A stretch of 35,592 nt of DNA from a virus. The DNA lies in IMG/VR virus record IMGVR_UViG_3300030329_004172, positions 1-35,592 of that record, one strand, 5' to 3'. Shown piece by piece: positions 5,366 through 33,241 of the stretch (its first letter is position 1; every line of letters starts with the position of its first letter). The notes under the pieces are model-generated. The model was not told the origin of the DNA, searched no databases, and saw only the letters and a list, made by a program, of their open reading frames with translations. The translations under genes and the position numbers were made by a program.

Positions 5366-5367
5366 AT

Positions 5368-7788: not shown

Positions 7789-7796
7789 AAAAATTA

Positions 7797-7818
7797 TTAA
7801 CTATTATTATATTATATT
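7797..7818 (+). promoter_or_regulatory. A/T-only leader with ATTAT repeats before the scaffold gene
   Basis: The short gap before the scaffold start consists only of A and T and ends in TATATTATATTATG, where the last ATG is the start codon. The identical 14 bases precede the gene at 10664. There is no Shine-Dalgarno-like purine run. An unstructured A/U leader is the known type of ribosome entry in Bacteroidota. Whether the repeat also acts as a promoter cannot be told from sequence. Confidence 0.4.
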
Positions 7819-9039: not shown

Positions 9040-9058
9040 CAATTAAAAATTTAAAATT

Positions 9059-10576
9059 ATGGCAATAACTGCAGGAGGTAGTTTAAATAGTGTGCCTTCT
9101 CCACAGAAGCAAGCACTAAATAATAACTACATCGATTTTACGTCAACAGGTTCGAATAGTGCGAACTGGGGACAACAATACCTGCCTGACTTAATGGAAA
9201 AAGAAGCTGAAGTGTTCGGTACAAGAACTATTTCTGGTTTCTTATCACAAGTTGGTGCAGAAGAAGCTATGACATCTGATCAAGTTGTTTGGTCTGAACA
9301 AGGTAGATTACACTTAGCTTACACATGCTCTATGATTGACGCTGACCAAGGAATTGGTGGTGATAATCCGGGTTGTGAAATTGAAATATTACTAGATATG
9401 GATGGTCAAGATCCAGGAACTAACCACGGTATACGTGTAAACGATACTGTAATCGTTGCTGGTGGAACTGGTCAAACTTTCAAAGGTATCGTAACACAAG
9501 CGTCTGCTGGTTCAACTAACATAGAGGTTGTTCCTTATGATGCTAATGACTCTGTCATTGCTGATGGTACTGACAACTGTACTATTATGGTTTACGGTTC
9601 TGAGTTTGAAAAAGGTAGATCTTACTTAACAGCAGATGGTTATACTGATGCTGGTGCTTATGGTACAGCTACTGATCAAAGAGGAGCTAACGAACCTAAG
9701 TTTCAAACTTTTACTAACAAACCAATTATCTTAAAAGATTACTACGAAGTATCAGGTTCTGACGCTTCTAGAATTGGTTGGGTTGAAGTTACTTCTGAAG
9801 GTGGTGCTTCTGGGTACTTATGGTACTTAAAAGCTGAAGCTGACACAAGAGCTAGATTTACTGATTATTTAGAAATGGCAATGATTGAAGGTGTTAAAGC
9901 TTCAGGAACAAACGACGCTGATTTAATTCTTGGTGGTAACGGTAACGAAACTGGTACTGAAGGTTTATTTTCTGCTATTGAAACTAGAGGTAACTTAACT
10001 TCTGGTATTACAGGTGTTAACGCTGCTACTGATTTAGCTGAATTTGACGCAATACTTGCTGAATTTGACAAGCAAGGTGCTATTGAAGAAAACATGATGT
10101 TTGTTAATAGAACTACTAGTTTAGCTATGGACGACATGTTAGCTTCTATGAATTCTTATGGAGCTGGTGGTACTTCTTACGGAGTATTTAACAACTCTGA
10201 AGACATGGCACTTAACTTAGGTTTCTCTGGTTTTAGAAGAGGTTCTTACGACTTCTATAAATCTGACTTTAGATACTTAAACGATTTTGCTACTAGAGGA
10301 GCTATAAACGCTGTTGCTGGTGCAAGCGCTATCAGAGGGGTTATTATCCCAGCTGGTACGTCTTCAGTTTATGATCAACAAGTTGGTGCTAGTATGAGAC
10401 GTCCTTTCTTACATGTAAGGTATAGAGCTTCTCAAACAGATGACAGAAGATTCAAAACTTGGGTTACAGGTTCTGTTGGTGCTGCTACATCTGCTTTAGA
10501 TGCAATGCAAATTCACATGTTATCAGAAAGATGCTTAATCGTACAAGGTGCGAACAACTTTATGTTAATGAAGTAA
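9059..10576 (+). CDS. Major capsid protein
   Basis: A 505-residue protein following the scaffold. Codon use looks cleaner and more uniform (many GGT, GCT, ACT), as expected for the most highly expressed gene. After a flexible start comes a helix with WGQQYLPDLMEKEAEVFGTR, then GFLSQVGAEEAMTSDQVVWS, a pattern seen at the N-arm of marine phage HK97-fold capsid proteins. The centre carries beta-rich segments (GIRVNDTVIVAGGTGQTF), a spine-like helix around ARFTDYLEMAMIEGVKAS, and the C-terminal half ends in MQIHMLSERCLIVQGANNFM. The gene is followed at once by a strong terminator, which fits a separately dosed late transcript. The N-terminal Lys/Arg processing site, if any, is not evident. Confidence 0.85.
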   Translation: MAITAGGSLNSVPSPQKQALNNNYIDFTSTGSNSANWGQQYLPDLMEKEAEVFGTRTISGFLSQVGAEEAMTSDQVVWSEQGRLHLAYTCSMIDADQGIGGDNPGCEIEILLDMDGQDPGTNHGIRVNDTVIVAGGTGQTFKGIVTQASAGSTNIEVVPYDANDSVIADGTDNCTIMVYGSEFEKGRSYLTADGYTDAGAYGTATDQRGANEPKFQTFTNKPIILKDYYEVSGSDASRIGWVEVTSEGGASGYLWYLKAEADTRARFTDYLEMAMIEGVKASGTNDADLILGGNGNETGTEGLFSAIETRGNLTSGITGVNAATDLAEFDAILAEFDKQGAIEENMMFVNRTTSLAMDDMLASMNSYGAGGTSYGVFNNSEDMALNLGFSGFRRGSYDFYKSDFRYLNDFATRGAINAVAGASAIRGVIIPAGTSSVYDQQVGASMRRPFLHVRYRASQTDDRRFKTWVTGSVGAATSALDAMQIHMLSERCLIVQGANNFMLMK

Positions 10577-13603: not shown

Positions 13604-16600
13604 ATGCCAGAAATTAAAAACAGTTTCACTCAAGGTAGAATGAATAAAGACTTTGATGAGAGACTTATACCTAACGGACAATATAGAGACGCTCTAAATA
13701 TACAAGTTTCAACATCTGAAGAGTCAAATATTGGAACAGTGCAAAATATATTGGGTAACGAAAGAGTTGAAAATTTAATTCCTGCTTCTGAAAATTATAA
13801 ATGTATCGGTAGTATCGCCGACGAAAAAAACAATAAATTATACTGGTTTGTAACTAAAAAAAGCGCACCTAGAGTTGACGCTATAGTTGAATATAGAAAA
13901 GGTTTTGATGCTAAGCTTGTTTTGGTTGACAATAAAGCAGGTACAGTTGATGCAATATTAAAGTTTCCTGATAATATAATAACAGGTATAAACTTAATAG
14001 AAGACATGTTGTTTTGGACAGACAACATAAACGAACCTAGAAAAATAAACATAGAAAGATGTAAACAAGGAACTAGCGGTACATTAAACAACCCAGTACA
14101 CACAAAGTTGTTTGTTAACGGTGCTATAGTTCAAGAAAACAACACAGATGTTGATTTAACAGAAGATCATATTACTGTTATTAAAAAAAGACCTACTAAG
14201 GCTCCTACTGTAAATGTAAACACGGTTTCTGGTGATGTTGAAGATCCTTTATTTGAAAAAACTTTTTCAAGGTTTGCTATAAGATATAAATACGAAGATA
14301 ACGAGTACTCTGCTTTTAGTCCTTTTACTGATATAGTTTTTAGTGCTAAATATAAAGAAGGTTACGATAAAGATAATTCTTTTTCTATAGAAGAGCCATA
14401 CAATACAGCCATGCTTAACAGTATAAAATCTATAGAGCTAAGCGATTTTGTCGCACCTGATATACCTAAAGATGTTGTTCAAGTGGATATACTTTATAAA
14501 AAAGAAGATTCACCTATAGTTTACTCTATAGCTAGTATAAAAAGCACCGACGATGAATTTACAGATGATGGTTCTTCATCTGCTTCTAATTTTAAAGGAA
14601 AATATACAGTAGAAAAAGAAAACATTTATGCTGCTGTTCCAGAATCACAACTGTTAAGGCCTTGGGATAATGTACCTAGAAACGCTTTAGCTCAAGAAAT
14701 AACTGGAAGCAGATTAATATACGGTAACTATATTCAAAACTATGATTTAGGTGTAGATGAAAACAACAATGTTATAACACCTTCGCTAGATGCTGGTTTT
14801 GGTTTAAGAAATAATAATGATAATTTTTACGATGCAGGTTTACCTTCGTTAAAATCGCAAAGAAACTACCAGCTAGGTGTTGTGTTTGGCGATAAATACG
14901 GCAGAGAAACACCTGTTTTTTCTTCTACAGATTCAGCTATACGTATACCTTGGGAAGATTCAAATTTAGGTAAATGTGCTAGTACTTCTTTACAGCTTCA
15001 GGCTAATCTTACCTCAAGTGTTCCAGCTTGGGCAGACTACTATAAATTTTACGTAAAAGAAACTTCAGGCGAGTATTACAACTTGGTCATGGATAAAGCT
15101 TATGTACCTACTTCGGATATAGATGAAGAAGAAGAGTATGGCCATATTTGGATGTCTTTTCCTTCTTCTGATAGAAACAAAATAACGGAAGAAGATTTTT
15201 TAATATTAAAAAAGAAAATAGGTGTAGGTGAGCAGCAAATACAAACTGATAATAAATACAAAATTATTGATGTAGCTAATAATGCACCTGATTCTATAAA
15301 ATACAAATACGTTGGATTAGGATCAGTGTCTAACACTGACGGTAGTGACACTACACAGTTAACAGATGATATTTTAACTGAATCAGCTAACAGAATAGAT
15401 AAACAAGTAGACACTTTAATTGTAGATAAAACAAACTGGGAAACAGAAACTAGCGCTGAAATTTTTTCTAATATTCAAGACACTTATGTTTCTTGGGTTA
15501 AAACAACAGGTACGGCACCTAATAAAATAACACAAGCTTCAAAAAGATATAAAATAGCTTCACAAAAAACAGGTACATATGATTTCAAACTAGAAGAAAA
15601 AATATCTGAAAAAGACGCCGCTCTAGCTGCGCACGCTACAGACTCTACTTTACTTGATGCTGATATAACTTTTAAAATAGAAAGAAAACAGTTAAAAGAC
15701 ATGGACGAGTTTTCAGGTAGATTTTTTGTTAAAGTTGTGGCTGATGATACTGTAAATTCAAATATAGAAAATAGTGTAACTACAGAGTTGTTAGATAATC
15801 ATGTTGTTGTTGCTCAAAGAGACACTTTTTGGTTTGCTGATACTAGAGCTACAACAGCTAACGATGAAGATACTGGTATAGTTAATTCTTTAGGTTTAGG
15901 AACTATACCTACTGGTACCGATGCTATTACCGCTAAAAACGGTGCTGTAACGCCTTTAACTAACACAGCTACAGCTTGGGGAACTTTAGAAACTTATGTA
16001 AACAATAAGTTTTTTATAGATAGCATGTATTTTTGTGCTGGACAAAATTCACCTAACAATTACGCTAGAGACGCTGGTAGTATTTTCAGAGGAACAACTA
16101 ATCAATACGCGGGTATAGAGTGGACTAATAGAATACAAGAATTTTCTGCTTCTAACGACGCTTACGCTCAAGGTATAAATTCTGGTGGTCATAGATGGTG
16201 GCCATTTGATTTTGACGACAACAACGCGGCAATACCTCACACAAGCGTTATTGTAACTAACGAAGATCCAACTGTAAACATTAACGGTATGGATGGTTTT
16301 GTTAAAACCTCTGAAGGTTCACCACTTGTTAGTGACGATGGTTTTAAAAGATGGAGAAAAGAAGGGCCTTTAGCTACGGTTGGTTTTCCTAACGCTGATT
16401 ATTCTTTTGATGAAACATACGGGCCTAATGATGGTAGAGAAAGGTATTTTATACATTTATCGTTTTTAGCACCAGGTGCTGATTTAGTTCCTGACGCTAT
16501 AGATATAGATGGTGCTACTTTAAAAGGTAACAGTAGTTTAGCTGTACACTTACAAGGTATTTGGGGAGGTGGTGTATTTTGTAACGAAACAGGTACTAAA

Positions 16601-19600
16601 TTAGGAGATTCTAGCGATCGTATAATAGAATTTGAAGGTAACTACAATGACGATAATGATCCTGTTAGAAATTCACCTGGGCCTGGTTTTGGTCAAGGTT
16701 ACAATGAATCTTATACCGAACTACACAACAATCAATGGAATCCAGCTTATCCAGCTAGCAGAGATGAGGACGGCTTAATACAAGATTTTGTATCTAATAT
16801 AGCCGTAGGTAACAGATTTAAGTTTGATGGCGACACAGACGAAACTGTTTATACAATATTATCTAAATCAATTAAAAAAATATATAATCACACTCCATGG
16901 AGAAAAAGAAAAATATACGATGGCACTAGCTTTGTTTTTGGTGGTGACAGTGTAGAAGAGGCGGCTGTTACTTGGGCCGCTAACGCCGATACTAATGGTA
17001 CACCAGCTGACACATCTGGTAACACTGAGCATGAAGATTTAGAAGAAAAAATTAAAGAATTTGGTCAAGCTGACAACAGAAGAATATGTTATATTATAGA
17101 AGTAGACAAAGATCCTACAGATCAAACTTATAACCCTTTAGGTAATGCTGACGTTGACACGGCACTTAGTATACAGTTTGTTGAAAGTGATTCTAGAATA
17201 TTATCTGGAAGTGTATCAAGGCAATCAGCTATATGGGAAACAGAAGCTAAAAAAGAAACTGATTTAAATATATATTACGAGGCCAGTGACGCTATACCAA
17301 CTAATTTAACTTTACAAAACAATGAAGTTTTTGCGCCTATTGGCTGTGTGGTAGACTTTTTTGATATACCACAAGCTAAAAATGGTGCTACTAATATACT
17401 GGAAGATGTTTTGCTAGACTCTTGGGATTCTGCTACAGAAATAACGCTAAGCCCTGGGTTTAACCAATTTGATTCTAGCAATACAGCTATAGAGTATAGA
17501 GGTTCACAACTAAGGTTTTACAAAAAAGATGGCAGTTATGTTACAGCTAGAGTTTCACCAGAAGACACGGCTTACGATGATTTAGACGCTGGAGACAATG
17601 TTACTAAGTTTGTTGTAACAGATATTGTTAACCCTGAATTTGAAGTAGGTTTAAGCTGGTATAATTGTTTTACTTTTGGTAACGGTATAGAGTCTGATAG
17701 AATAAGAGATGGTTTTAATGAAATGCAAATAACTAATGGAGCTAAAGCTTCATCAACAACAGAAGAGCCTTATCAAGAAGAGCATAGAAAACATGGCTTA
17801 ATATATTCAGGTATATACAACTCTAACTCTGGTTTAAATGAATTAAATCAGTTTATAATGGCTGATAAAATAACAAAAGATTTAAACCCTACTTTTGGTA
17901 GCATACAAAAGTTGTTTCAAAGAAGAACAAGTTTAATTTCTTTTTGTGAAGACAGAGTTGTTCAAATACTTTCAAACAGAGACGCTTTATTTAACGCTGA
18001 TGGTAACCCTCAATTAATATCATCAAGCGCTGTACTAGGTGATGCTACTCCTTTTATAGGTGACTACGGTATATCAAGAAACCCAGAATCTTTTGCTAAA
18101 GAATCTTATAGAGCTTATTTTACAGATAAACAAAGAGGCGCTGTTTTAAGGTTATCTAATGATGGGCTAACGCCAATATCTGATGCTGGTATGCATGATT
18201 GGTTTAGAGATAACTTAACTAGCGCTGGATTTTTAATAGGTACCTATGATGAATATAAAAAAGACTACAACTTAACTTTATCTAGGCCTATACTACAAAA
18301 CTTATTAGTTAACGCTGACGTATCAGCAGGTGTTGCTGTAGAAGAAACTATACCTTTGCCAGAATTTATAATAGACGGCGGTATAAACAACGGTGATCCT
18401 GTAAATTTACCTGTTATAGATGAAACAAACATGTCTATCGTTAATGAAGAAATAGAAACAACTACTGATATTGTTAATTACTCGGCTATAGATGCTGGAA
18501 CTTTACAAAGTTTTGTAGCTGAAATACCTGCTGTAGCCCCGATTGACCCTGTTTTTGAGCAAGGAATTAGTAGCATAAACACAAGCGGTACACCTTATTC
18601 TGCTACAGCTTATGATGGTACTGGTTTTAATGTGTTTTCCAACAATTACAAAACTTTAGCTCAAGGTGGTACCACTAACGGTAACCCGTTTGAAGATTTC
18701 ACAGGTGACACACCGACGGCTAGATTAAGAAGAAGAAATTATACTGGTGATGACAACAATAATAGTTACTTGAGTAATCAAAACAGCCCAGATTCTAATA
18801 TAGATGGGCCTATAGGCTCTAACAATTATGTAAATTATACCGTTGGTGGTGGCGATTATGATGTTGCTTTTGGAAGCGGAAGTGTAACTAGCGACAACAA
18901 CAAAGGTAACGTTCACTACAACACAGACACTCCAGGTGGTTTTTTAGGAATAATATTTAGACATGAATATTCAAACCATCAGTTGGGTAAAGGTAACGAC
19001 TTTAGAACTACAGGCAACAATGATGGTTCCAGTTGGTTAGAGTTTCCTAGAGATTACGACGATGATAATGAAGCGGTACCGGCAGATGTTTTAGCAAAGT
19101 TTACTACAGCAAAAAACAACACTATATTTAACGGTGAAGAATTAGAAATACAATTTAGAATTAGAACAAGACAAGATGGTTTAGATAGATCAAACACTAA
19201 CGATCGTTTTGGTGGTTTTGAAATAACACTTTTTGATGGTCAAAATCAAGTAGCTAACAGTATAATACATAATCCTGGCGCGGCTGTTTCAACTATATCA
19301 GATCCTTTTAGTGAAACGTTACATACGCCTGAAGATACTGGCAACGATATAGATGATTCTGGTGCGTTACATTTAGGTTTTCAAGATGACTCTCAAGTTC
19401 AATTTGCAGACGTAAGACTAAACAACGAAAATTATAATCATAAATGTTATTTTAAATTTAAAGACACAAGCTTGGTAGACGCTAACGGTAACTTAAAAGA
19501 CGGTATAGTGATTGAAAATCTTATAATAAGATTAAGATTTAAAACATCTGATCACGATGAAGATCAGGCTTACACTTTAAGAGACTTTACCGCAAGAAAA

Positions 19601-21934
19601 ATATTTAGATTAGCTGAGCCTGGTGTTGAAGAGGTTATTAACGAACCTGAGATACAGGCTTTTCCACCTGTAGACATACCAGCTTACACACAAGTAACGC
19701 ATAATTCTATTGTTGGTTGGAACTCTGCTACCAGTGGAGTTGTTTTTAATCCTACAGCTATATCAACTTACGGCAACGATACAGGTGCTCCGACATCTCA
19801 AACTTATGTTACATCACAAGTACCTTTAACTACAGCTACAGCTTTAATACCTCCTGGTTTTGATTTAAACACAGGTACAGGTGCTCCAGCAGCGTTAAAT
19901 TTTAGTGACGGCGCTTACACTACAGACGATAAATTTGATATAGACGCCACAAGCAACGATGTTATTATTAATCAAGTTTTAGCAACGCCTTATGTGGTAG
20001 GTAATTTTTACTTACTAGACTTATATTGTGACACAGCCGCTATAACAGGCGAAGCCTTAGTCCACGGTGTTGCACCTAGCTCTGGTGTTGCGCAAGGGGA
20101 TCAATTAGATGATCATTTTGGAACAGTTTACATCAACAACAATATAAACAGTATAAAGTTGGTTTCAACCACTAGAACATCATCAGAATACGGTACAGGC
20201 ACAGACACAGTTTTAAGAGCTATATTTAAAGTGCAAAGCGGTAGTTATATAGCAAACAACAACTTATTAGGTGCTCTTAATTTAGAATTTACAGATGATT
20301 TTGTAGGTGAAATAACAAAAGTTAAACTAATAAACATATCTACAACTTCATCATCTGGTCAAGCTACTCACTGGAACATGGATACCAGCGCTTTAAACCA
20401 AACACACTCTTTAAGTTTACCTACACTTTACTATGGTGGTAACAACTCTTATTCTGGTTTCAACTGGGATGGTGGTAGAGAGGTTAATTTTATAAATCAA
20501 ACATTTACACCTTCTTTAGGTGCCGCTAGCACGGCAACTTCAGCAGACGGCTACAGTTTGGTGTTTACAATATCAGAAGCTGTTGATATAAACGGAACAT
20601 CGTTAGGCGCTGTTGATGGCGAATTACAAGGCTTTGTTCATTGCGCACATGACGGTACAAGCTGTACTGGTTTCAGTTTTACGGGTATAGATACAGCTGG
20701 AGATTACGAAATAACGGGTAATTTTGATGGTTCAGCTCCAACAATTATTTCAGCTCCTACCGGGTCTGCTGTTTTAGTCACTTCGTCTACCGAATCAGAT
20801 GCTAGTTTAGCTAATCAAATTTACTTCAACCCTGTAGATAATGCTGATTTTACAGGTAATATAAATAATATTTCTTTAGTAGATATAACAAACTTTTTTA
20901 GCGGTGGTACTGCTAGCGCTTTTGCTTTTGGTGGCTTTAACACAACAACTCAAGATTTTATACAGTTTGACTTAACTAATGAAAACATACAATTTAATTC
21001 AGCTCCAGCAGCTGGCGGTGTGGCAGACGGCCCTGTTAGGTTAACACAATACATACCTAACGTTTTAAACACTGGCGAAACATTTAGAGTTAAATTTGAT
21101 TATACTAATATAACTGGAGAGCTAAATGGTTATTACTTTAATAGCGCTGGCAAAGGATTTAGACTAGACACTATTAGCAACACTGGTGTTTACAATCAAA
21201 GATTTGAAATAGGCGATGATAATCATGATGACAGCACTACAGGAATTTGGCCTAACGGTGAATTGAAAAACACATTTGTTATTTATGTTCAAACAGGTGA
21301 TGTTTCAGGAACAATAGATAATTTAGTTTTACAACAAGAGTTTCCTGGTTACGAACCAACTACTGTAACTTATAGTGAAGACGTTAAAGGTTGGGTAAGT
21401 TTTAAATCTTTTGGTGGTGTTAATATTAACGGAGAAGAATTAACGCTTGATTATGGAGTTAGTTTAGCTAAAAAGTACTTTACAATGCACCAAGGGCGTT
21501 TGTATGAACACCACATGCAAGGCGCGCCTAGAAACACTTTTTACGGTATATTTGTACCATCAACTTTAACAGCCGTTTTAAACGAATCACCTTCTATTGT
21601 AAAAATATTTAACACTTTAAATTACGAAGGCAGCCAGTCTAAAGTTAAGCTTTTTGAAACTAAAACAACAGACGATGATATAAACGAAATACAAGAAACT
21701 TTAAGCAATATAAATATTCACAACAGCACTCAAGCTAAAGATGGTTGGGCTGTAGACACGAGTTTAGGTGGATATATAAAAACAGACAAACAACAAGGTA
21801 CATTAATAGAATTTATAGAAAAAGAAGGTAAATGGTTTAATTACATTAGAGGTGATGGCTCAGATGTTAAAACAGCTGATTTAAGCTTCCAAGGTTTAGG
21901 TATAGTTACTAACACACCTACTATAGGTTCATAA
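13604..21934 (+). CDS. Giant tail nozzle / stabilization-type protein with inserted binding modules
   Basis: A 2776-residue protein. The opening MPEIKNSFTQGRMNKDFDER, then LIPNGQYRDALNIQVSTSEE, is characteristic of the tail tube/stabilization proteins of crAss-like and related short-tailed phages, whose core is a beta-propeller-like nozzle (compare T7 gp12). Propeller-like blades follow (KNNKLYWFVTKK, LIEDMLFWTDNINEPRKINI). A middle core segment holds FQRRTSLISFCEDRVVQIL (about 1440-1460) up to YDEYKKDYNLTLS (about 1550). The core resumes near 2587 (VTYSEDVKGWVSFKSFGG to VKIFNTLNYEG). About 1000 residues between are Gly/Thr/Asp-rich jelly-roll-like modules, probably glycan binding, and a further insert lies around 640-1250. 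The protein should form the tail nozzle and present receptor-binding parts. Core assignment is strong; the insert role is inferred. Confidence 0.8.
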   Translation: MPEIKNSFTQGRMNKDFDERLIPNGQYRDALNIQVSTSEESNIGTVQNILGNERVENLIPASENYKCIGSIADEKNNKLYWFVTKKSAPRVDAIVEYRKGFDAKLVLVDNKAGTVDAILKFPDNIITGINLIEDMLFWTDNINEPRKINIERCKQGTSGTLNNPVHTKLFVNGAIVQENNTDVDLTEDHITVIKKRPTKAPTVNVNTVSGDVEDPLFEKTFSRFAIRYKYEDNEYSAFSPFTDIVFSAKYKEGYDKDNSFSIEEPYNTAMLNSIKSIELSDFVAPDIPKDVVQVDILYKKEDSPIVYSIASIKSTDDEFTDDGSSSASNFKGKYTVEKENIYAAVPESQLLRPWDNVPRNALAQEITGSRLIYGNYIQNYDLGVDENNNVITPSLDAGFGLRNNNDNFYDAGLPSLKSQRNYQLGVVFGDKYGRETPVFSSTDSAIRIPWEDSNLGKCASTSLQLQANLTSSVPAWADYYKFYVKETSGEYYNLVMDKAYVPTSDIDEEEEYGHIWMSFPSSDRNKITEEDFLILKKKIGVGEQQIQTDNKYKIIDVANNAPDSIKYKYVGLGSVSNTDGSDTTQLTDDILTESANRIDKQVDTLIVDKTNWETETSAEIFSNIQDTYVSWVKTTGTAPNKITQASKRYKIASQKTGTYDFKLEEKISEKDAALAAHATDSTLLDADITFKIERKQLKDMDEFSGRFFVKVVADDTVNSNIENSVTTELLDNHVVVAQRDTFWFADTRATTANDEDTGIVNSLGLGTIPTGTDAITAKNGAVTPLTNTATAWGTLETYVNNKFFIDSMYFCAGQNSPNNYARDAGSIFRGTTNQYAGIEWTNRIQEFSASNDAYAQGINSGGHRWWPFDFDDNNAAIPHTSVIVTNEDPTVNINGMDGFVKTSEGSPLVSDDGFKRWRKEGPLATVGFPNADYSFDETYGPNDGRERYFIHLSFLAPGADLVPDAIDIDGATLKGNSSLAVHLQGIWGGGVFCNETGTKLGDSSDRIIEFEGNYNDDNDPVRNSPGPGFGQGYNESYTELHNNQWNPAYPASRDEDGLIQDFVSNIAVGNRFKFDGDTDETVYTILSKSIKKIYNHTPWRKRKIYDGTSFVFGGDSVEEAAVTWAANADTNGTPADTSGNTEHEDLEEKIKEFGQADNRRICYIIEVDKDPTDQTYNPLGNADVDTALSIQFVESDSRILSGSVSRQSAIWETEAKKETDLNIYYEASDAIPTNLTLQNNEVFAPIGCVVDFFDIPQAKNGATNILEDVLLDSWDSATEITLSPGFNQFDSSNTAIEYRGSQLRFYKKDGSYVTARVSPEDTAYDDLDAGDNVTKFVVTDIVNPEFEVGLSWYNCFTFGNGIESDRIRDGFNEMQITNGAKASSTTEEPYQEEHRKHGLIYSGIYNSNSGLNELNQFIMADKITKDLNPTFGSIQKLFQRRTSLISFCEDRVVQILSNRDALFNADGNPQLISSSAVLGDATPFIGDYGISRNPESFAKESYRAYFTDKQRGAVLRLSNDGLTPISDAGMHDWFRDNLTSAGFLIGTYDEYKKDYNLTLSRPILQNLLVNADVSAGVAVEETIPLPEFIIDGGINNGDPVNLPVIDETNMSIVNEEIETTTDIVNYSAIDAGTLQSFVAEIPAVAPIDPVFEQGISSINTSGTPYSATAYDGTGFNVFSNNYKTLAQGGTTNGNPFEDFTGDTPTARLRRRNYTGDDNNNSYLSNQNSPDSNIDGPIGSNNYVNYTVGGGDYDVAFGSGSVTSDNNKGNVHYNTDTPGGFLGIIFRHEYSNHQLGKGNDFRTTGNNDGSSWLEFPRDYDDDNEAVPADVLAKFTTAKNNTIFNGEELEIQFRIRTRQDGLDRSNTNDRFGGFEITLFDGQNQVANSIIHNPGAAVSTISDPFSETLHTPEDTGNDIDDSGALHLGFQDDSQVQFADVRLNNENYNHKCYFKFKDTSLVDANGNLKDGIVIENLIIRLRFKTSDHDEDQAYTLRDFTARKIFRLAEPGVEEVINEPEIQAFPPVDIPAYTQVTHNSIVGWNSATSGVVFNPTAISTYGNDTGAPTSQTYVTSQVPLTTATALIPPGFDLNTGTGAPAALNFSDGAYTTDDKFDIDATSNDVIINQVLATPYVVGNFYLLDLYCDTAAITGEALVHGVAPSSGVAQGDQLDDHFGTVYINNNINSIKLVSTTRTSSEYGTGTDTVLRAIFKVQSGSYIANNNLLGALNLEFTDDFVGEITKVKLINISTTSSSGQATHWNMDTSALNQTHSLSLPTLYYGGNNSYSGFNWDGGREVNFINQTFTPSLGAASTATSADGYSLVFTISEAVDINGTSLGAVDGELQGFVHCAHDGTSCTGFSFTGIDTAGDYEITGNFDGSAPTIISAPTGSAVLVTSSTESDASLANQIYFNPVDNADFTGNINNISLVDITNFFSGGTASAFAFGGFNTTTQDFIQFDLTNENIQFNSAPAAGGVADGPVRLTQYIPNVLNTGETFRVKFDYTNITGELNGYYFNSAGKGFRLDTISNTGVYNQRFEIGDDNHDDSTTGIWPNGELKNTFVIYVQTGDVSGTIDNLVLQQEFPGYEPTTVTYSEDVKGWVSFKSFGGVNINGEELTLDYGVSLAKKYFTMHQGRLYEHHMQGAPRNTFYGIFVPSTLTAVLNESPSIVKIFNTLNYEGSQSKVKLFETKTTDDDINEIQETLSNINIHNSTQAKDGWAVDTSLGGYIKTDKQQGTLIEFIEKEGKWFNYIRGDGSDVKTADLSFQGLGIVTNTPTIGS

Positions 21935-23759: not shown

Positions 23760-24620
23760 ATGGAATTTCACCCTAAATATCGCAAACAATTATTTATAGG
23801 CCAGGTTATAGCGGCTTTTGTAGGTGCTAGCTCTGCTAGTAAAGCAAGAAAAGAAGCGGCGGCTAGAGCTGAAGAACAGTCACAAAAAGCACTAGAACGT
23901 CAAAAAGCTGCTAGAGCTAGAGTAGAAGAACAAAAAGCCAGATACGCACAGTATCAGTTTCAAAATCCTTTTGAAGGTATGGAAAACCCTTTTGAAGATT
24001 TAAAAGTTAGTACAGAAGCAGCTGACTTTCAAATGGAACAAGCGGCACAACAAAGAGCGAATATTATGGCTGGTTTACGTGGTGCAGCTGGTACTAGTGG
24101 TATAGCTGGTTTAGCGCAAGCGTTAGCTAACCAAGGTGTAATACAAGCAAGACAAGTTTCAGCTGATATAGCTAGACAAGAAGCAGCAGGCCAATTAGCT
24201 ATGGCTAAGGGCGCTATGGCTATAGATCAACTAGAAAGACAAGGTCAAGCGGCTGTACAACAAGCTGAATCAGCAAGAGAAGCTACAATACTGGGTATGG
24301 AGTATGGTGCTTTAACTGGCGCTAGTCAAGCACAACAGCAAGCTTCACAAAATCAAATGTACCAAGGTATAGCCGGTATGCAGATGCAACAACAAAACAT
24401 GTTAGCATTAGCTAGCTTATCAGGTGTAGATGGGCCTTTAAGTAATTTATTTGGCGGTATGGGTGGTCAACAAAGAGTAAACGTAGGTGTACCACTAGGG
24501 TTACCAAGTAGTGCGGCAGCCGCAACAGGTGGTTTAATGGGTAGTTTGACTCAAGATCCAGTTTTAACACAACAAATAACTACGCCTTCTTATTATAATA
24601 TAACAGATCAAAACCAATAA
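23760..24620 (+). CDS. Internal (ejection) virion protein candidate, Ala/Gln-rich helical
   Basis: A 286-residue protein with a short hydrophobic N-terminus (QLFIGQVIAAFVGASSASKA), a basic coiled coil (about 28-62, EEQSQKALERQKAARARVEE), and long Ala/Gln-rich helices (ANIMAGLRGAAGTSGIAGLA, DIARQEAAGQLAMAKGAMAI, QAQQQASQNQMYQG). The C-terminus is Gly-rich. This composition and the short amphipathic start are usual for small internal or ejection proteins of podoviruses such as T7 gp14, which line an envelope channel. It heads the run of three internal-type genes leading to the polyvalent protein. There is no motif that proves this; the role is inferred from composition and order. Confidence 0.6.
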   Translation: MEFHPKYRKQLFIGQVIAAFVGASSASKARKEAAARAEEQSQKALERQKAARARVEEQKARYAQYQFQNPFEGMENPFEDLKVSTEAADFQMEQAAQQRANIMAGLRGAAGTSGIAGLAQALANQGVIQARQVSADIARQEAAGQLAMAKGAMAIDQLERQGQAAVQQAESAREATILGMEYGALTGASQAQQQASQNQMYQGIAGMQMQQQNMLALASLSGVDGPLSNLFGGMGGQQRVNVGVPLGLPSSAAAATGGLMGSLTQDPVLTQQITTPSYYNITDQNQ

Positions 24621-24622
24621 AC

Positions 24623-26392
24623 ATGGCAATAACAATAGCAGGAAAAGCAGATAACACATTAGTAAAAATGTCGGCATTAGCCGAAATGGCAGATAAACCA
24701 GCTGACACTTCAGCGGTATCAGATGCCTTGTTAGAATCATACGGTCAGTTTATGATCGGTATGGGTAAAGTATATGATAACGAAATGGCTAAGTTGGAAG
24801 CTGAAAAAAAACCACTAGAAGATGTTTTCGGTAAAGTTATATCAGAAGTTAGTAACGGAACTTATACTAACGAAGAAATAACACAAGTACAAGGTTACAT
24901 AGATCAACTTAGAGAACAATATAAAGCTATACCTAGAGGTAAAAAAGGTGAAACACAGCGCCAACAATTACAAGCTCGTATAAATAAATTTTACAACAGC
25001 TACGAAGCTGGTGGTGGTGAAAACTTAACTTACGCTAAATTGATAGATAATGGCGAGTATGATGCAAACAATATGGAAGGCTTTATAAAAGGCAGAAGAA
25101 TAAGCAACGCCGAGTCTATGGAAATATTTAACAAGCTTGGTAGTAAAGATTATCAATTAAGTTTTGAAAACGACGAAAAAAATTATAGAATAAAGTTGAA
25201 AACCGGCGAAACGATAAATGTAGCACAAAGCGAGCTTAGTGGTATATTTGCCACAGATCAACCAGATGCTGAAGGCAACTACGACACCGTTGATGCTTTT
25301 TACAAAACATTAGGTCAAGCTGAAGGTTCTGTTTGGGACGCCACCGAAGCCAGTAATAACATACAAAAGAAAGTTTTTACAACAGATGGCGCTTTTGCTT
25401 ATATAATAAAAAGAGCGCAAGGTTCAGCGACTATGTCTTTTCATGAAGCTTTACACAAAGAACAAGGCTTTATGACAGCTGAAATGTTTAAAACTTTAGG
25501 CGAAATAGATCCTAAGCTTTTAGAAAAATACGATACAGATGGTGATGGAGATTTAGATGCCGGTGATTTTCAAAATCCAGAAAATTACAAAAAGCTAATT
25601 AGCATTTTAACAAACACTAAAGATCCTGATTTTAACAGAAAATGGGCTTATAAGTTTGCTGCAGACTGGCACGCTGGTAAAATGAAAGACTCTTTTGACG
25701 CTGGTGAAAAAATGAGGAAAAAAGGCGGCGGCGGTGGCGGCGGTGGTACTACCACTTACCCTTGGGGAGCTAATAAAGGGCAGTCTAGACCTATTGAGAA
25801 TATACTATCATGGTATCAAGGCGATATGGATTTAAATACTCTTAATAAATCTTTAGGAGGAGATGAGATAATTTATGATGAAGATACTGAAGAGTGGATA
25901 TATTACGATCTTTCTTCTGGAAATGAAATTCCTATATCTACAGGACCTGGCGTAGATGGTGAGCCGATATTAAATATTATATCAAAACTTTGGAAAAACA
26001 ATAGTACAGCTTATGGTAACAAGATGGTTGACTTTGATTGGGACGCTTTAGAATTTAACGCTGAAATAGCAGGTGCTGGTGATGATCAAAATAAAAATAA
26101 AAAAACAAGCGAAGGCCCAACTCTAAAAGCTTTAATGTTGAAACAAGGAGATTATCAGTTTTTAAGCAACAATGATCGTAGAAAACAATTGAAAGATTTT
26201 ATAAATAATACATATGATTTTGGAGATAAAAAAGTTAGGGTTGCTATGGGGCTAAGGGCATCTCCAGGACAAAATGTTCAAATTATAACTAAATTTGCAG
26301 GAGGAGGACAAGAAAGAACAAAGTTTACGTTTACGCAAAAAGGATTTGCAGATCTACGTAAATATTTAAAAGATTTACAAGAAAATAAATAA
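24623..26392 (+). CDS. Internal virion protein candidate with EF-hand loop
   Basis: A 589-residue mostly helical, hydrophilic protein two bases after the gene upstream. Early helices hold SDALLESYGQFMIGMGKVYD and NEMAKLEAEKKPLEDVFGKV. At residues 304-315 a canonical EF-hand loop reads DTDGDGDLDAGD, with D at positions 1, 3, 5 and 12 of the loop, so calcium binding is plausible. An eight-Gly run (368-375) separates the two halves and probably acts as a hinge. The C-terminal half has FDWDALEFNAEIAGAG and RKQLKDFINNTYDFG. It lies between two ejection-type genes, so I infer an internal virion or tail-channel component. No overall family is recognised. Confidence 0.6.
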   Translation: MAITIAGKADNTLVKMSALAEMADKPADTSAVSDALLESYGQFMIGMGKVYDNEMAKLEAEKKPLEDVFGKVISEVSNGTYTNEEITQVQGYIDQLREQYKAIPRGKKGETQRQQLQARINKFYNSYEAGGGENLTYAKLIDNGEYDANNMEGFIKGRRISNAESMEIFNKLGSKDYQLSFENDEKNYRIKLKTGETINVAQSELSGIFATDQPDAEGNYDTVDAFYKTLGQAEGSVWDATEASNNIQKKVFTTDGAFAYIIKRAQGSATMSFHEALHKEQGFMTAEMFKTLGEIDPKLLEKYDTDGDGDLDAGDFQNPENYKKLISILTNTKDPDFNRKWAYKFAADWHAGKMKDSFDAGEKMRKKGGGGGGGGTTTYPWGANKGQSRPIENILSWYQGDMDLNTLNKSLGGDEIIYDEDTEEWIYYDLSSGNEIPISTGPGVDGEPILNIISKLWKNNSTAYGNKMVDFDWDALEFNAEIAGAGDDQNKNKKTSEGPTLKALMLKQGDYQFLSNNDRRKQLKDFINNTYDFGDKKVRVAMGLRASPGQNVQIITKFAGGGQERTKFTFTQKGFADLRKYLKDLQENK

Positions 26393-26395
26393 AAA

Positions 26396-29300
26396 ATGGC
26401 TGACAGAAAAAGATATAAATCGTTTAAAGATGCACCTGATTTTGACACAGACTCTTCTTTAGGTTTGTTTGCAAGAAACAGAAACACTAAAGAACAAGAA
26501 GAAAATAAAACAGGTTTAGATAAAATATTCAATATAGGTAGAGAATATTTAGATGCTGTAGTCGGTGGTTGGAAGACTGGTAGGGTAACAGAAGAGTATT
26601 TAGAAGTTTTTAAAGGTGATTTTAGTGACGAAACTATAGGCGCTATGATTAAAGCTGGAGACGAGTTAAACGCGTTGCCTCAAAGCGAAAGAATGATGGA
26701 CTTTCTTGAAAGAGCCAAAGACAAAAGTTTTTTTGGCGCTTTAATAGAACTAGCTAAAAAAGACGGGGCTTTGATAGCTTCACAAGTAGCTTTACAATCT
26801 ATGTCTATGATGGCTGGTGCTGTTTACGATAGTGGTGTAGATTTATCTCAAGGTAAAACACCTGACATTTTTGGTTATATGGCAGCGGGAGCTGGTATAG
26901 GTGCTGGAACTGGAGCTGGTGTTGGTACTTTTGTTCTTCCTGGTATTGGAACAGCGTTTGGTGCTGTCACTGGTGGTGCTGGCGGTGCTTTAGGCGGTAT
27001 TTCCACTGGATTAGAAAATGGTTTAACTTTTGTAGAATTGCTTAAAGAAGAGTTAGCAGCTATAGATCAAGACATGACAGAAGAAAACGCTAAAAACTGG
27101 TTGCAAGACAAAGAAAATTATAAAAAAATAAAAAACAAAGCTTTAAAAAGAGGTTTGACTATTGGGGCTGTTGATATGTTTACCGGTATAGCTTCAGGTG
27201 GTGCGGCTAAAGCTATAACGGGTACAGGTACACAAATAGGTAAAAAGTTAACCGATCTACCTATAAAAACACAAAGATTAGCTCAACTAGGAACTGGTGC
27301 TGTCGTAGAGGGTGCTGGTGGTGGTGTTGGTGAATTTTTAGGACAAAAAGCAGCAGGTCAAGAAATAAACACCGCTGATATAATATTAGAAGCTTTTGCT
27401 GAAACGCCTGGCGCGGCTATAACAACACTACCGGCTATGTTCAGTAAAACACCAGAGTATTTTATAACAGAAAATGGTAAAAAAATAAAATACACTAAAA
27501 AACAATTTTTAAACGCTATAGATGGTTTAGACGATAGCGCTTTAGCTACATTGGGTATTGATATAAAAAATGATGATAATTTTAAAGCTCAGTTGTATGA
27601 CAGAATGAACTCTTCTTTTTTAAGAACACAAATAGATCCTAGAGTAAAAGACGAAAAAACAATAAACAAAATAATAGAGTTAGAAAAAGAAGCTCAAAAG
27701 TTATACGGTAACAAAACCGTATCAGGTAAAGAAAGATTAAAAGAAGTAAAAGCAGAAATAAAAGAGTTAACGCAAACAGACGCTAAAATGACCGCGGCTG
27801 ATAGAGCTAAAGTTAAAGAAGCTGAAGAAATAAAAAGAACTAGAGAGCAATTAAATATATCAGAAAGCATAGAGTTTGCTGAAACTCAAGGCGAAAGAAT
27901 AGGTAAATCAGTTTTAGTTGTTGAAGACAACGAATCAGCACAAGACGTTTACAATCAATTAATACAAGCTGCTCCAGATCAATTTAAAGCGAAAGACATT
28001 ACTGGTCAAGACGGTTTTATAGTTGGTGACGTTATTGTTATAAACAAAGATATAGCTGGTAAAAGTGGCGCTATAAGTGTTGGATCTCACGAGTTGTTAC
28101 ATGGCGTGTTAGCTAAACATTTAGAACAAATAGGCACAGAAGGTGCTAGGGCTCTTATAAAAGATTTTAGAAAAGTACTAAGTAAAAAACAAGAACAAGC
28201 AGTTTTACAAAGATTAGAAGATAATTATGTTTTTTTAAGAGACAAGAAAGGTGAATTTATATTAGATGAAAAAGGCAACAAAATAAAAGACGCTGATTTT
28301 GATATAGAAACAACAGACGAGTGGTTTACAGCTTTCTCTGATGCTATAGAAAAAGGCGAAATAACTTTTGATGAAGGCATTTTTAGTAAAATTAAAAATA
28401 CAATACATGAAATATTAAGAAAATTTAATTATTTAAAAGAGTTTGAAACTGGTAGAGGCGCTTACAACTTTTTAAAAGAATATAGTAAAAATATAGAAGC
28501 CGGTAAGTTAGGTAAAAGAGCTATGGCTTTAGCTGGTGAAGGTGTAGCTGTAGAAGGTATAAAAGCGTCTAAGTCTAGTGCTGATAGAGTAAATAAACTT
28601 TACGACGACAGAGGCGTAGAAGCTGCTGGAGATATATCTGTAGAATATAGAGGTATGGCTGAAAACATATTTAACAGAGCTGTTGATATGGCTGAAGGTG
28701 ATATAAAACAAAACTTAAAAGACAACAAAGAAGATATAATAGCTGGTATACTTTACGATCCTGGCACTGAAACTAGAAAAGGTAGAACTGTTTTAGGTTT
28801 GGTAAAAGATTACCCTGCTTACGTTAAAAAACAACAAGAGGCTGGTAAACCAGTAGCACCGTTAGCAGGTTTTATAAACAACATGTTACCAGACAGAGCT
28901 AAGGAAATTTTTAAACCTTACGGTGTAGACATGGCTGTAACTAAGTCTATAACGGATGAAAAAGTAGCTAGAGAGGTAGCTAAAAAAGAAGCCAAAGAAG
29001 ACATAGAAACAAAAATAGATACAAAAGAAAAAGGCCCAAGAGAATTAAAAAGTTTAGACGATGTTAATTTAAACGATGAAGGTGTAATAGCTGAAGAAAT
29101 TTTAAATAAAGTTAACGAACTAGTACAAACAAATCCTAAAAATTTAAAACAACAGTTATTGGCTTTAGTTGAAAAAGAATTTACCAACGCTATTAAAACG
29201 CAAATGGGTGGAATAAGTAAAGTTAAAGGCGAGGTGGTTGTTAGTGAAGAATATAAGGCTTTTCACGCTTTAGAGTTTGACAATATAGTAAAAGCTTTAC

Positions 29301-32300
29301 CTATTAGCGTTATTAAAAAAAATTATAACAATTTATTTGAAATAAAAAAGTTAGCTAGAGAAAAAGATAAAAGAGTAGATCCTGTAACTGGTAAAGTAAC
29401 TTACCCAGGTAAAGGTATATATCAAGTTGATCCAGTTAAAAAATCAGTGTTTGGTAAACACTTTTTAATAGGTGGTTATACAACTTTATTAGCAAGACAA
29501 AAAAAGTTAGCAGAGCACATGGCTACAGCTAAAGCAAAAGCAGCTGTAGACAATTACATAGAAGAAAACTCTAACGACATAAACGCTGTTGTTAGATCAC
29601 AATTAGAACAAGCTTTAGAAATTTTAGATAAACAAAAAGGTGAAAACAGAAGTTTTGACAATATTAAGTTTCACAAATCTATAATGAAAGAAACAATAAG
29701 TTTGTTTAATACTGGTAAATACGGCACAATGGGTAACGCCTTAGAACAAGCTTTAATGAACCATATAAAAAGATACAACATACCTGGTTTAAGATTTACT
29801 GTAGAAGAAACAGGAGAAAAAGGCGGTATGGCTGACTTGGTTTTTGACTTTGGTAACGTGCGTTATAACGTTGAAGTAAAAATGACCGACAAGGTTCCTA
29901 TGGGTAGTACTTCGGTTAATAAATATGATGTAAATAAAGACTTGAGTTTTGATTTATCTAAATCAGATAATGAGCTTTTAAATGTTGTAGCAGAAAAGTT
30001 AATGAAAAAAGCTAAAAAGCAAATTAAAGCTTACGTAGAAAGAGCTAATGAATTAATAGAAGAATATAACCAAGAGTACAACGACAATTATAAACCAATT
30101 GGCGAAATTGGTCCTGATATGGTAAAGAAAAAAGCAGTTATGCCAGAACCCGTGTACGATCAGTTAAAAAACGAGGGGTATGGTGCGGCTATAAACAGAG
30201 TTTTTGAAACAGGTGATGAAAAAATAGTTGTTAAGCACTATGCACTTAAACAAGCTATTATTGACGGTAAAAAACAACTAGCTCCAGTAAGACAAATAGA
30301 AATATTAGGGCAGTTTTTTAGATTATCAGACGAAAGCCCTTTTGACTCTATAGTTCCACTTTTAAAAGGTAAAACAAAGTCAAGATTAAGAGTTGATAAA
30401 CTTTCTAGACAGATAAAAAAAGACGGTAAAAAGTTAAAGTTTAAAAACAAAAATGGTCATGGTGAAGTTCCTTTTAAACTAAGAATAACGCATACTTTTA
30501 CAGAAGTAACAAACAGTTCTCCTTATTCGTTAAGTAGAAAAGAAGATTTACTAGCAATTTTACCTAAGTATTCTAGAACAACACCTGGTTACTCAAAAGG
30601 TTTAAACTTGTTATCAAAAGCCGCGGTTAACAGTAGAAACACGGTTAAATATAGTAAGTCAAGAGGTATGAGTACTTTTGATTTTGACGAGACACTTATA
30701 ATAAAAGGTAAAAACTTTGTTACAGCTACAGATCCTGCAAGTGGTAATACTATAAGGGTTAGCTCAGAGCAGTGGCCTACTAAAGGCACAGAGCTAGCAC
30801 AACAAGGTTATGAATTTGATTTTACAGACTTTGTAAATGTAAGAGGTGGTATTGATGGTCCTTTGTTACAAAAAATGAAAAACCAAATAAAAAAGTTTGG
30901 ACCTAAAGATGTTTTTGTTTTAACTGCTAGGCCAGCTAAAAGTGACACAGCGATACACGGTTGGTTAAAAACAAAAGGTATAAACATACCTATAGAAAAT
31001 ATAGTTGGCTTAGGTAATAGTACTGGTGAAGCTAAAGCCACATGGATGTTACAAAAGTTTACAGAAGGTTATAATGACATGTATTTTGTTGATGACGCTT
31101 TATCTAACGTTAAGGCTGTTAAAAACGTTTTAGATCAACTAGATATAAAATCAGATGTTCAACAAGCTAAAATCAAGTTTAGTAAAACAATAAACTCTGA
31201 CTTTAACAGTATATTAGAAGAAGTTAAAGGTGTACCTAAAGATGAAATAATAGACAGAGTTACAGCTAAAAAAATGGGAGCTAAAAAAGGTAGATTTAAT
31301 ATATTTGTACCGCCTTCTAACGAAGATTTAAATGGCATATTATATATGTTTATGGGTAAAGGTAAAAGAGGTGAACAACATAAACAGTTTTTTAAAAAAG
31401 CATTAGGTGATCCTTTAAATAAAGCTTATAGAGAGTTTTACAACGCTAGACAAGCTATAGCTAACGATTTTAAAGCGTTAAAGAAAAGAATACCAAATGT
31501 ACGTAAACAGCTTGCAGCTAAAGTACCAAACACTAATTTTGATGTTTCTGACGCTATAAGAGTTTATTTATGGGACAAATTTGGTTTTGATATACCAGGT
31601 ATATCAGAGGCTAATCAAAAAAAGTTAGTTAACTTTGTAAACGATAATAGTGATGTTAAAGATTTTGCCGAAACATTAAGCGTTATTTCTAAAGTTGAAG
31701 AAGGCTACGTTACGCCTAGTGAACACTGGATAACTGAGTCAATACAAGAAGATCTAATAAAAGCTACAGATAAAGTACGTAGATTAGATTTTTTTGAAGA
31801 ATTTTTAACTAACGCAGATATAATATTTTCTGAAGAAAATTTAAATAAAATAGAAGCTATATACGGAACTACCACAAGAGATGCTATATCGGACATGATG
31901 TATAGGATTAAAAACGGTACTAATAGAAGTTTTGGTAGCAATAAGTTCGTAAACGAATTTATGAACTGGATAAACGGCTCTATTGGCGCAACTATGTTTG
32001 TTAACGTTAGATCTTCCGTGTTACAGACTTTGTCTACTTATAACTTTATAAATTGGACAGACAACAATCCGTTTAAAGCGGCTAAGGCTTTTGCTGATCA
32101 ACCTCAATTTTGGAAAGATTTTGCAATGCTGTTTAACTCTAACATGTTAAAACAAAGAAGAAAAGGTTTAAAGTCTGACATTAACGCTTCAGAAATAGCT
32201 TCTTTTGTTAGAAAGTCAGATCGCCCTGTAAGAGCTGCTATAAATTGGTTACTAAGTAAAGGTTTTTTACCTACACAAATTGCAGATAGTTTTGCTATTG

Positions 32301-33241
32301 CTGCTGGTGGTGCCACAATGTTTAGAAATAGAGTTAACACTTACGTGAAACAAGGTTTTTCGGTCAAAGAAGCTGAAAATAAAGCTTTTTTAGATTTTGC
32401 TGAAATCGCAGAAGAAACACAACAGTCTGCAAGACCAGATAAAATATCACAACAACAAGCATCTGTATTAGGTAGATTAATACTGGCTTTTCAAAATACA
32501 CCTATACAGTATATGAGGTTAACTAAAAAAGCTATGTTAGACTTAGTTAATCGTAGAGGCGATGCTAGAACTAACATATCTAAAATAATTTATTACACCT
32601 TTGTTCAAAACGCTATATTCTACAGTATGCAGTCAGCTTTATTCGCTTTAGCTTTTGGTGACGATGATGATGAAAAAGATGAGTTTTTTAAAAAGAAAAA
32701 ACAAAGAGTGGCTAACGGTATGATGGATACTATATTAAGAGGTATGGGTATTGGTGGTGCTGTTGTGTCTACAATAAAAAATATGGCTATAGAGTTTGCT
32801 GAGCAAAGAGGTAAAAAGTATAATAGAGATGAAGGTGCTTTAATAATAGAAGCTTTAAATTTATCTCCGCCTATTGGTATAAAAGCTAGAAAAATAGATG
32901 ACTTTCAAAAAGGTTTTTTTTGGAACGAAGATGTTATGAAAGAAATGGAGTTGTTTAACTTAGAAAATCCTATTTGGGACGCTACTAGTAGTTTGGTTCA
33001 AGCAACAACTAATGTGCCTTTAAACAGGTTGTACAAAAAAGCATCTAACATAAGTGAGGCTTTAAACGCTGAAAACGAAACGTGGCAAAGAGTAGCTTTA
33101 GCTTTAGGTTGGAGTAAGTGGAATCTTGGTATAAAAAGTGACGAAGTTGATAAAGTTAAAGAACAAATAAAAAAAGAAAGACAAAGTGGAACGACTAACG
33201 CTAGAGAAACATTTAAAAGAACAAGAAAAAAAGGATTTTAA
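26396..33241 (+). CDS. Polyvalent ejected protein: zincin, PD-(D/E)XK-like and HAD domains
   Basis: A 2281-residue protein, three bases after the EF-hand gene. A Gly-rich hydrophobic region (about 161-209) could insert in a membrane. A zinc metallopeptidase motif HELLH (H565, E566, H569) is followed by E642 in TTDEWFTAFSDA, a candidate third ligand. A PD-(D/E)XK-type nuclease motif follows: D1147 in GGMADLVFDFG and E1160-x-K1162 in YNVEVKM. A complete HAD phosphatase set then appears: D1429-F-D1431 in STFDFDETL, T1510 in LTARP, K1547 in GEAKA, D1566/D1567 in YFVDDAL. The remaining 700 residues are helical with apolar stretches (LGRLILAFQNTPIQYMRLT; IIYYTFVQNAIFYSM). This matches the 'polyvalent protein' class of phage-injected multidomain proteins (Iyer and colleagues). 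It probably enters the cell with the DNA. Activities are inferred from motifs. Confidence 0.75.
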   Translation: MADRKRYKSFKDAPDFDTDSSLGLFARNRNTKEQEENKTGLDKIFNIGREYLDAVVGGWKTGRVTEEYLEVFKGDFSDETIGAMIKAGDELNALPQSERMMDFLERAKDKSFFGALIELAKKDGALIASQVALQSMSMMAGAVYDSGVDLSQGKTPDIFGYMAAGAGIGAGTGAGVGTFVLPGIGTAFGAVTGGAGGALGGISTGLENGLTFVELLKEELAAIDQDMTEENAKNWLQDKENYKKIKNKALKRGLTIGAVDMFTGIASGGAAKAITGTGTQIGKKLTDLPIKTQRLAQLGTGAVVEGAGGGVGEFLGQKAAGQEINTADIILEAFAETPGAAITTLPAMFSKTPEYFITENGKKIKYTKKQFLNAIDGLDDSALATLGIDIKNDDNFKAQLYDRMNSSFLRTQIDPRVKDEKTINKIIELEKEAQKLYGNKTVSGKERLKEVKAEIKELTQTDAKMTAADRAKVKEAEEIKRTREQLNISESIEFAETQGERIGKSVLVVEDNESAQDVYNQLIQAAPDQFKAKDITGQDGFIVGDVIVINKDIAGKSGAISVGSHELLHGVLAKHLEQIGTEGARALIKDFRKVLSKKQEQAVLQRLEDNYVFLRDKKGEFILDEKGNKIKDADFDIETTDEWFTAFSDAIEKGEITFDEGIFSKIKNTIHEILRKFNYLKEFETGRGAYNFLKEYSKNIEAGKLGKRAMALAGEGVAVEGIKASKSSADRVNKLYDDRGVEAAGDISVEYRGMAENIFNRAVDMAEGDIKQNLKDNKEDIIAGILYDPGTETRKGRTVLGLVKDYPAYVKKQQEAGKPVAPLAGFINNMLPDRAKEIFKPYGVDMAVTKSITDEKVAREVAKKEAKEDIETKIDTKEKGPRELKSLDDVNLNDEGVIAEEILNKVNELVQTNPKNLKQQLLALVEKEFTNAIKTQMGGISKVKGEVVVSEEYKAFHALEFDNIVKALPISVIKKNYNNLFEIKKLAREKDKRVDPVTGKVTYPGKGIYQVDPVKKSVFGKHFLIGGYTTLLARQKKLAEHMATAKAKAAVDNYIEENSNDINAVVRSQLEQALEILDKQKGENRSFDNIKFHKSIMKETISLFNTGKYGTMGNALEQALMNHIKRYNIPGLRFTVEETGEKGGMADLVFDFGNVRYNVEVKMTDKVPMGSTSVNKYDVNKDLSFDLSKSDNELLNVVAEKLMKKAKKQIKAYVERANELIEEYNQEYNDNYKPIGEIGPDMVKKKAVMPEPVYDQLKNEGYGAAINRVFETGDEKIVVKHYALKQAIIDGKKQLAPVRQIEILGQFFRLSDESPFDSIVPLLKGKTKSRLRVDKLSRQIKKDGKKLKFKNKNGHGEVPFKLRITHTFTEVTNSSPYSLSRKEDLLAILPKYSRTTPGYSKGLNLLSKAAVNSRNTVKYSKSRGMSTFDFDETLIIKGKNFVTATDPASGNTIRVSSEQWPTKGTELAQQGYEFDFTDFVNVRGGIDGPLLQKMKNQIKKFGPKDVFVLTARPAKSDTAIHGWLKTKGINIPIENIVGLGNSTGEAKATWMLQKFTEGYNDMYFVDDALSNVKAVKNVLDQLDIKSDVQQAKIKFSKTINSDFNSILEEVKGVPKDEIIDRVTAKKMGAKKGRFNIFVPPSNEDLNGILYMFMGKGKRGEQHKQFFKKALGDPLNKAYREFYNARQAIANDFKALKKRIPNVRKQLAAKVPNTNFDVSDAIRVYLWDKFGFDIPGISEANQKKLVNFVNDNSDVKDFAETLSVISKVEEGYVTPSEHWITESIQEDLIKATDKVRRLDFFEEFLTNADIIFSEENLNKIEAIYGTTTRDAISDMMYRIKNGTNRSFGSNKFVNEFMNWINGSIGATMFVNVRSSVLQTLSTYNFINWTDNNPFKAAKAFADQPQFWKDFAMLFNSNMLKQRRKGLKSDINASEIASFVRKSDRPVRAAINWLLSKGFLPTQIADSFAIAAGGATMFRNRVNTYVKQGFSVKEAENKAFLDFAEIAEETQQSARPDKISQQQASVLGRLILAFQNTPIQYMRLTKKAMLDLVNRRGDARTNISKIIYYTFVQNAIFYSMQSALFALAFGDDDDEKDEFFKKKKQRVANGMMDTILRGMGIGGAVVSTIKNMAIEFAEQRGKKYNRDEGALIIEALNLSPPIGIKARKIDDFQKGFFWNEDVMKEMELFNLENPIWDATSSLVQATTNVPLNRLYKKASNISEALNAENETWQRVALALGWSKWNLGIKSDEVDKVKEQIKKERQSGTTNARETFKRTRKKGF

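Follow-up and report, generated by a model that had tools for sequence, protein, structure and literature searches.

A giant multi-domain protein, probably of the phage polyvalent type, encoded at the end of the virion cassette of a marine crAss-related virus

Phage-type polyvalent proteins were described by Iyer and colleagues in 2017, with the zincin as their commonest domain (PMC5512222). The same authors described the prepackaging cleavage of P1 DdrB and discussed self-processing by the zincins of both DdrB and phage N4. In N4, the giant and injected virion RNA polymerase gp50 carries a zincin and, downstream of it, a further domain within the C-terminal encapsidation region (PMC5512222). 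A second point of reference is crAss001, in which the muzzle gene is followed by genes for cargo proteins, whose chains are stored in capsid and tail. The cargo protein gp45 is expected to exit N-terminus first and partly unfolded, and the crAss001 muzzle has ring-joining and propeller domains in common with the T7 nozzle (PMC10172136). The giant virion proteins of crAss-related phages are almost entirely unannotated.

The window analysed here is an entire virus record of 35,592 bases, which may be only part of the genome. Its source is a marine virus that infects bacteria and is related to the crAss-like and flavobacterial phages; its portal is 45-55% identical to the portals of ctfjg026 (a spring-water podovirus), Maribacter phage Panino and the Flavobacterium elemo phages. 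The order of genes is terminase large subunit, portal, major capsid protein, connectors, muzzle, small proteins and giant, with the following features.

3152..10576, + strand: cassette of terminase large subunit, portal, scaffold candidate and major capsid protein
13604..21934, + strand: muzzle/tail-tip protein, 2776 aa (crAss_MUZ_C E 8e-10; phrog_14478)
23760..24620, + strand: candidate internal virion protein, 286 aa; its relatives elemo gp20 and phi38:1 gp99 are both annotated as virion structural proteins
24623..26392, + strand: 589-aa gene directly upstream of the giant, positional counterpart of phi38:1 gp100
26396..33241, + strand: P0001, gene of the giant, putatively polyvalent protein, 2281 aa, ATG start

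The phi38:1 counterpart of the muzzle-like protein has 1324 aa, roughly half as many. Directly behind the giant in most relatives, and at 33244-34278 in the window, stands a 344-aa protein with a signal-peptide-like start and no PHROG match. A small endonuclease gene at 35126-35485, staphylococcal-nuclease-like by sequence (phrog_452 E 1e-36), also lies close to the giant in some of the relatives.

A first scan of viral contigs gave 60 loci with relatives of P0001, and further scans enlarged the set to about 85, across which the motifs described below are conserved beyond chance. Complete relatives are 2243-3936 aa long. The block from residue 1403 or so to 2260 is kept among them at 40-62% identity, and the first 1400 residues are highly variable. 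In loci that reach far enough, the arrangement muzzle - g114 - g286 - giant - g344 - g93 - g120 is largely kept. Outside this set the protein is hard to place by conventional searches: tblastn of P0001 against named phages returned zero matches at E 1e-3, neither phmmer nor profile searches with P0001 or its core reached significance among solved structures, and a Pfam search found no polyvalent or LPD family above cut-off. Matches to the BT_3987-like and ribosomal S8 families of Pfam fell below threshold and were disregarded. The family is new, and the kind of phage protein to which it probably belongs has already been described.

We favour the reading that P0001 belongs to the phage-type polyvalent proteins: together with its two partners encoded upstream, the chain probably enters the head and is injected as infection begins. 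Like the proteins of Iyer and colleagues, it joins unrelated domains, among them a zincin, in one chain (zincin, PD-(D/E)XK nuclease, HAD phosphatase and a helical half), is encoded with the late genes of the portal-terminase region, varies in architecture between relatives and has a related predicted C-terminal fold. It differs from them in its near-constant HAD phosphatase, in forming a family outside Pfam and in belonging to marine crAss-related podoviruses; neither 'phosphatase' nor 'haloacid' occurs in the main text of their paper (PMC5512222). The first-pass annotation had proposed just such an injected polyvalent protein on the strength of peptidase, nuclease and phosphatase motifs. The polyvalent assignment was supported by the three enzyme domains, the virion cassette, a predicted C-terminal fold resembling that of proteins annotated as PolyVal/LPD, and LPD14, which is found upstream of the zincin in four relatives (best E 1e-5). 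One further relative has a glucosaminidase in that position.

The domains of P0001 are located as follows.

26870..27808, + strand: aa 159-471, N-terminal region rich in glycine zippers, a candidate for a membrane/channel or leading-end segment (phrog_32588 E=4e-36)
28013..28549, + strand: zincin metallopeptidase domain, aa 540-718
28088-28102, + strand: HELLH, residues 565-569
28319-28321, + strand: third ligand E642
28598..29074, + strand: aa 735-893, linker domain in a divergent copy; the version in relatives is reminiscent of sigma-70 region 2 (weak lead)
29720..30571, + strand: PD-(D/E)XK nuclease fold (predicted), aa 1109-1392
29744-29881, + strand: codons of E1117, D1147, E1160 and K1162
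30656..31180, + strand: HAD phosphatase domain, aa 1421-1595, with D1429, D1431, T1510, K1547, D1566 and D1567
31181..33175, + strand: aa 1596-2260, C-terminal domain, conserved and all-helical, predicted to fold as other phage polyvalent proteins do in their C-terminal parts

All the residues singled out from the sequence at the outset, namely H565ELLH569, E642, D1147, E1160 and K1162 as well as the HAD set D1429/D1431, T1510, K1547 and D1566/D1567, lie at those positions in a single reading frame, which runs uninterrupted across the 2281 residues (26396-33241, +). Two AlphaFold models were used to examine folds, one of aa 500-1427 (mean pLDDT 72.8) and one of aa 1401-2281 (mean pLDDT 77.7). 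Foldseek alone against the PDB gave no match at E <0.001 for either model, and our statements about folds are based on re-scoring with VIA-align and on BFVD.

The zincin is near-constant among relatives. From composition, 0.013 HExxH motifs would be expected per protein; among the 60 relatives longer than 1500 aa there are 61, with exactly one in 59 of the 60, placed 904-1340 residues ahead of the HAD motif LTAR. A conserved glutamate aligns with E642 in at least 90% of 36 alignment rows. The model of aa 500-1427 predicts the layout of polyvalent-type zincins, a small sheet (strands 6-10, 41-44 and 47-51), an HExxH helix (63-95) and a glutamate in a second helix (143-153), which E642 opens. 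The proposed zincin is strong by sequence, although its fold support is weak, with Z about 3-4 in VIA-align for known zincins, for lethal factor and for PPEP-3. Lethal factor endopeptidase is also where the N4 zincin led Iyer et al. (PMC5512222).

The nuclease sits within an exchangeable module, aa 850-1400, confined to P0001, L001, L038, L039, L067, L068, L070, L072 and L074, and is a minority feature among relatives, unlike the zincin and the HAD domain. E1117, E1141, G1143, G1144, A1146, D1147, E1160 and K1162 are identical in nine of nine carriers at an overall identity of about 26-34%. The best fold match in the 500-1427 model is HhaI endonuclease (Z 8.4, 196 residues aligned, VIA-align), followed by Holliday junction resolvases (Hjc, Z 4-5). 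The arrangement E...D-x(n)-(D/E)xK on a predicted alpha-beta core is that of the PD-(D/E)XK superfamily, and the nuclease first suggested by a motif thus has good fold evidence in addition to complete residue invariance among its carriers.

For the HAD domain the fold evidence is clear. The model of aa 1401-2281 places a HAD domain ahead of an all-helical half, with DxD, Thr, Lys and DD on a predicted Rossmann-like fold. Across the 50 aligned cores T1510, K1547, D1566 and D1567 never vary, and D1429 is present in 45, the other five having gaps there. The complete catalytic set recognised at first sight stands in a predicted HAD fold. It is near-constant among relatives, with motif I complete in most. 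A sub-threshold family, DUF2608, which we take to be HAD-like, appears in this region in 34 of 50 members and gives mild support for the HAD assignment only. The top fold match is the 3'-phosphatase of T4 Pnkp (Z 12.5, rmsd 2.4, 126 aligned, VIA-align), which the P0001 domain resembles in predicted fold and motif set at only 14% sequence identity; many other HAD phosphatases score Z 9-11.

The helical half was searched against BFVD. Outside the circle of near relatives, matches with E values of 1e-14 to 1e-5 were obtained to many phage proteins, and the annotation of several of these reads PolyVal ADP-ribosyltransferase, ART-PolyVal-like or large polyvalent protein-associated domain. This match between predicted folds, which came from an unselected search, is the strongest tie of P0001 to polyvalent proteins. 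It also bears on the idea that P0001 is purely a takeover protein, made early and unpackaged. The enzyme content by itself would suit such a protein; the C-terminal fold in common with other giant polyvalent proteins speaks against it, as does the genomic position, since the giant invariably closes the series of large genes in the virion operon, a place where phi38:1 and the elemo phages encode large proteins annotated as structural. We regard an unpackaged protein as very unlikely. Packaging of P0001 we infer from its position in the cassette and, by analogy, from the crAss001 cargo genes behind the muzzle.

Position relates P0001 to several described giants. By position and description it resembles crassvirus gp45/gp46 and the RNA polymerase cargo gp47, gp49 and gp50, whose genes lie directly behind the muzzle; unlike gp47, gp49 and gp50, it has no detected RNA polymerase module. 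By description it is also like N4 gp50, a giant protein with a zincin ahead of a C-terminal domain, but no polymerase module was found in P0001. The syntenic virion cassettes of phi38:1, elemo and ctfjg026 hold gp101, gp18 and a 3859-aa protein, respectively, in the same place. No homology of the core (HAD and C-terminal half) to the giants of phi38:1 (gp101), elemo (gp18), Panino or ctfjg026 was found by HMM. The N-terminal region is common to P0001 and the ctfjg026 protein (E=1e-8, small database) and, at profile level, to only six of 48 relatives. As the source of phrog_32588, phi38:1 gp101 was ruled out, its match being to phrog_22602. The literature found on phi38:1 virion proteomics makes no mention of gp101.

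Initially, P0001 had also been supposed to fill the place of the large T7-type ejection protein, with virion channel and takeover enzymes possibly fused. As with T7 gp16, the gene closes the cassette of internal virion proteins and lies after the nozzle/muzzle gene, so the positional part of this proposal held, and P0001 has a glycine-zipper-rich N-terminal region. Other results speak against the remainder: a Pfam search found no gp16-like lytic transglycosylase in P0001, no membrane helix was found, in that no 19-residue window has a mean hydropathy of at least 1.4, and the N-terminal region recurs at profile level in only the six of 48 relatives mentioned above. A T7-type channel role is thus partly supported, by position only.

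A related explanation takes P0001 as a virion maturation and ejection protein, with a zincin that acts in assembly only, a channel built from the helical half and the N-terminus, and an incidental nuclease and HAD domain. The T7/crAss ejection-cassette position would fit this, as would the glycine-rich N-terminus (a glycine-zipper-rich stretch spans residues 159-205 or so) the pairing of a near-constant zincin with variable cargo, and the cleavage of P1 DdrB before packaging (PMC5512222). Catalytic residues of the HAD domain and the nuclease are, however, kept at 30-60% identity, unrelated enzyme modules are swapped in the same place, which fits cargo better than scaffolding, and the negative search for a membrane helix counts here too. 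On balance we judge this explanation unlikely.

The exchange of modules is concentrated between the zincin and the HAD domain. A different linker family is common to 40 other sequences that are without the nuclease module. A tree of the core requires six changes for the nuclease and four for the kinase described below, and it places the nuclease-free L012 among nuclease carriers with strong support; cargo is therefore exchanged while the core is inherited. The linker domain behind the zincin (L004:10625-11017, with similar places in about 27 relatives) is a weak lead towards sigma-70 region 2 at the level of sequence. Its profile in relatives has an RNA polymerase sigma factor as top PDB match (E 3e-4) and RpoH as second (0.15), and one relative matches Sigma70_r2 at E 0.06. 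A profile-profile comparison of the linker with the sigma factors of one genome aligned in register and was not significant.

Ten relatives (L022, L023, L024, L026, L027, L028, L029, L032, L035 and L052) have, just before LTAR, a zeta-toxin/AAA_33-type P-loop kinase where the HAD nucleophile segment would otherwise stand. Pfam Zeta_toxin/P-loop kinase matches were obtained in at least seven relatives. The later HAD motifs are conserved in the ten carriers, where the HAD may possibly be a dead domain kept as a scaffold. A complete HAD followed in tandem by the kinase is found in L056 (1832-13642). These arrangements invite a narrower form of the injected polyvalent reading, with which it is compatible: the HAD domain, together with the kinase in some relatives, could be an injected end-healing enzyme of the Pnkp kind, acting on tRNA or DNA that host defences have cleaved. 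The T4 Pnkp 3'-phosphatase as best fold match argues for it, as does the AAA_33/Zeta_toxin kinase, which adjoins the HAD in ten relatives and follows a complete one in L056. Yet the kinase displaces the HAD nucleophile segment in those ten and the complete pair exists only in L056; the Z scores of many other HAD phosphatases, and the names given to the kinase by Pfam and one UniProt entry (zeta-toxin/UDP-GlcNAc kinase), likewise point away from it. End healing is thus conceivable and, in our estimate, rather improbable.

Returning to the injected polyvalent protein, a course of events can be proposed. Firstly, the conserved helical C-terminal half would load the chain into the virion, a role we suggest because of its conservation, its predicted fold match to polyvalent proteins and the encapsidation region of N4. 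Secondly, by analogy with crAss001 gp45, the chain might pass through the muzzle partly unfolded with its glycine-rich N-terminus leading. Thirdly, the zincin may split the chain into separate enzymes, at packaging or after entry, or may cleave a host protein. Finally, the PD-(D/E)XK domain would cut a nucleic acid, presumed to be its substrate, and the HAD domain would remove phosphates, for which the ends that host defence nucleases leave on nucleic acids are the most plausible site.

A bolder version would have an undescribed phage family inject a modular multi-enzyme protein, in which zincin, HAD domain and C-terminal loader form a chassis around a cargo bay. The cargo would include the nuclease, the zeta-toxin-like kinase found in place of the HAD nucleophile segment and, directed at host RNA polymerase, a domain like a sigma factor, of which the window has a degenerate copy. 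As a whole this is quite doubtful; were it true, end repair and transcription takeover would start before phage gene expression. If the proteins are injected, marine crAss-related phages would provide, on one common chassis, a naturally occurring range of protein cargoes that can be exchanged. The family also makes testable what the zincin of polyvalent proteins targets and which part directs packaging, for which the C-terminal half is a candidate, and it yields a list of new enzyme modules, likely for counter-defence.

Some of the related loci (L074 and L076-L082) come from MAG bins of Maricaulis, Aliivibrio and Woesearchaeota and are probably misbinned phage contigs. Host assignment from the bacterial and archaeal bins was rejected, since the taxa involved are numerous and unrelated and the hits resemble phage contigs that were binned with MAGs. 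At L060:8414-15536 the giant is split into three frames relative to its close relative L025, by assembly error or genuine frameshifts.
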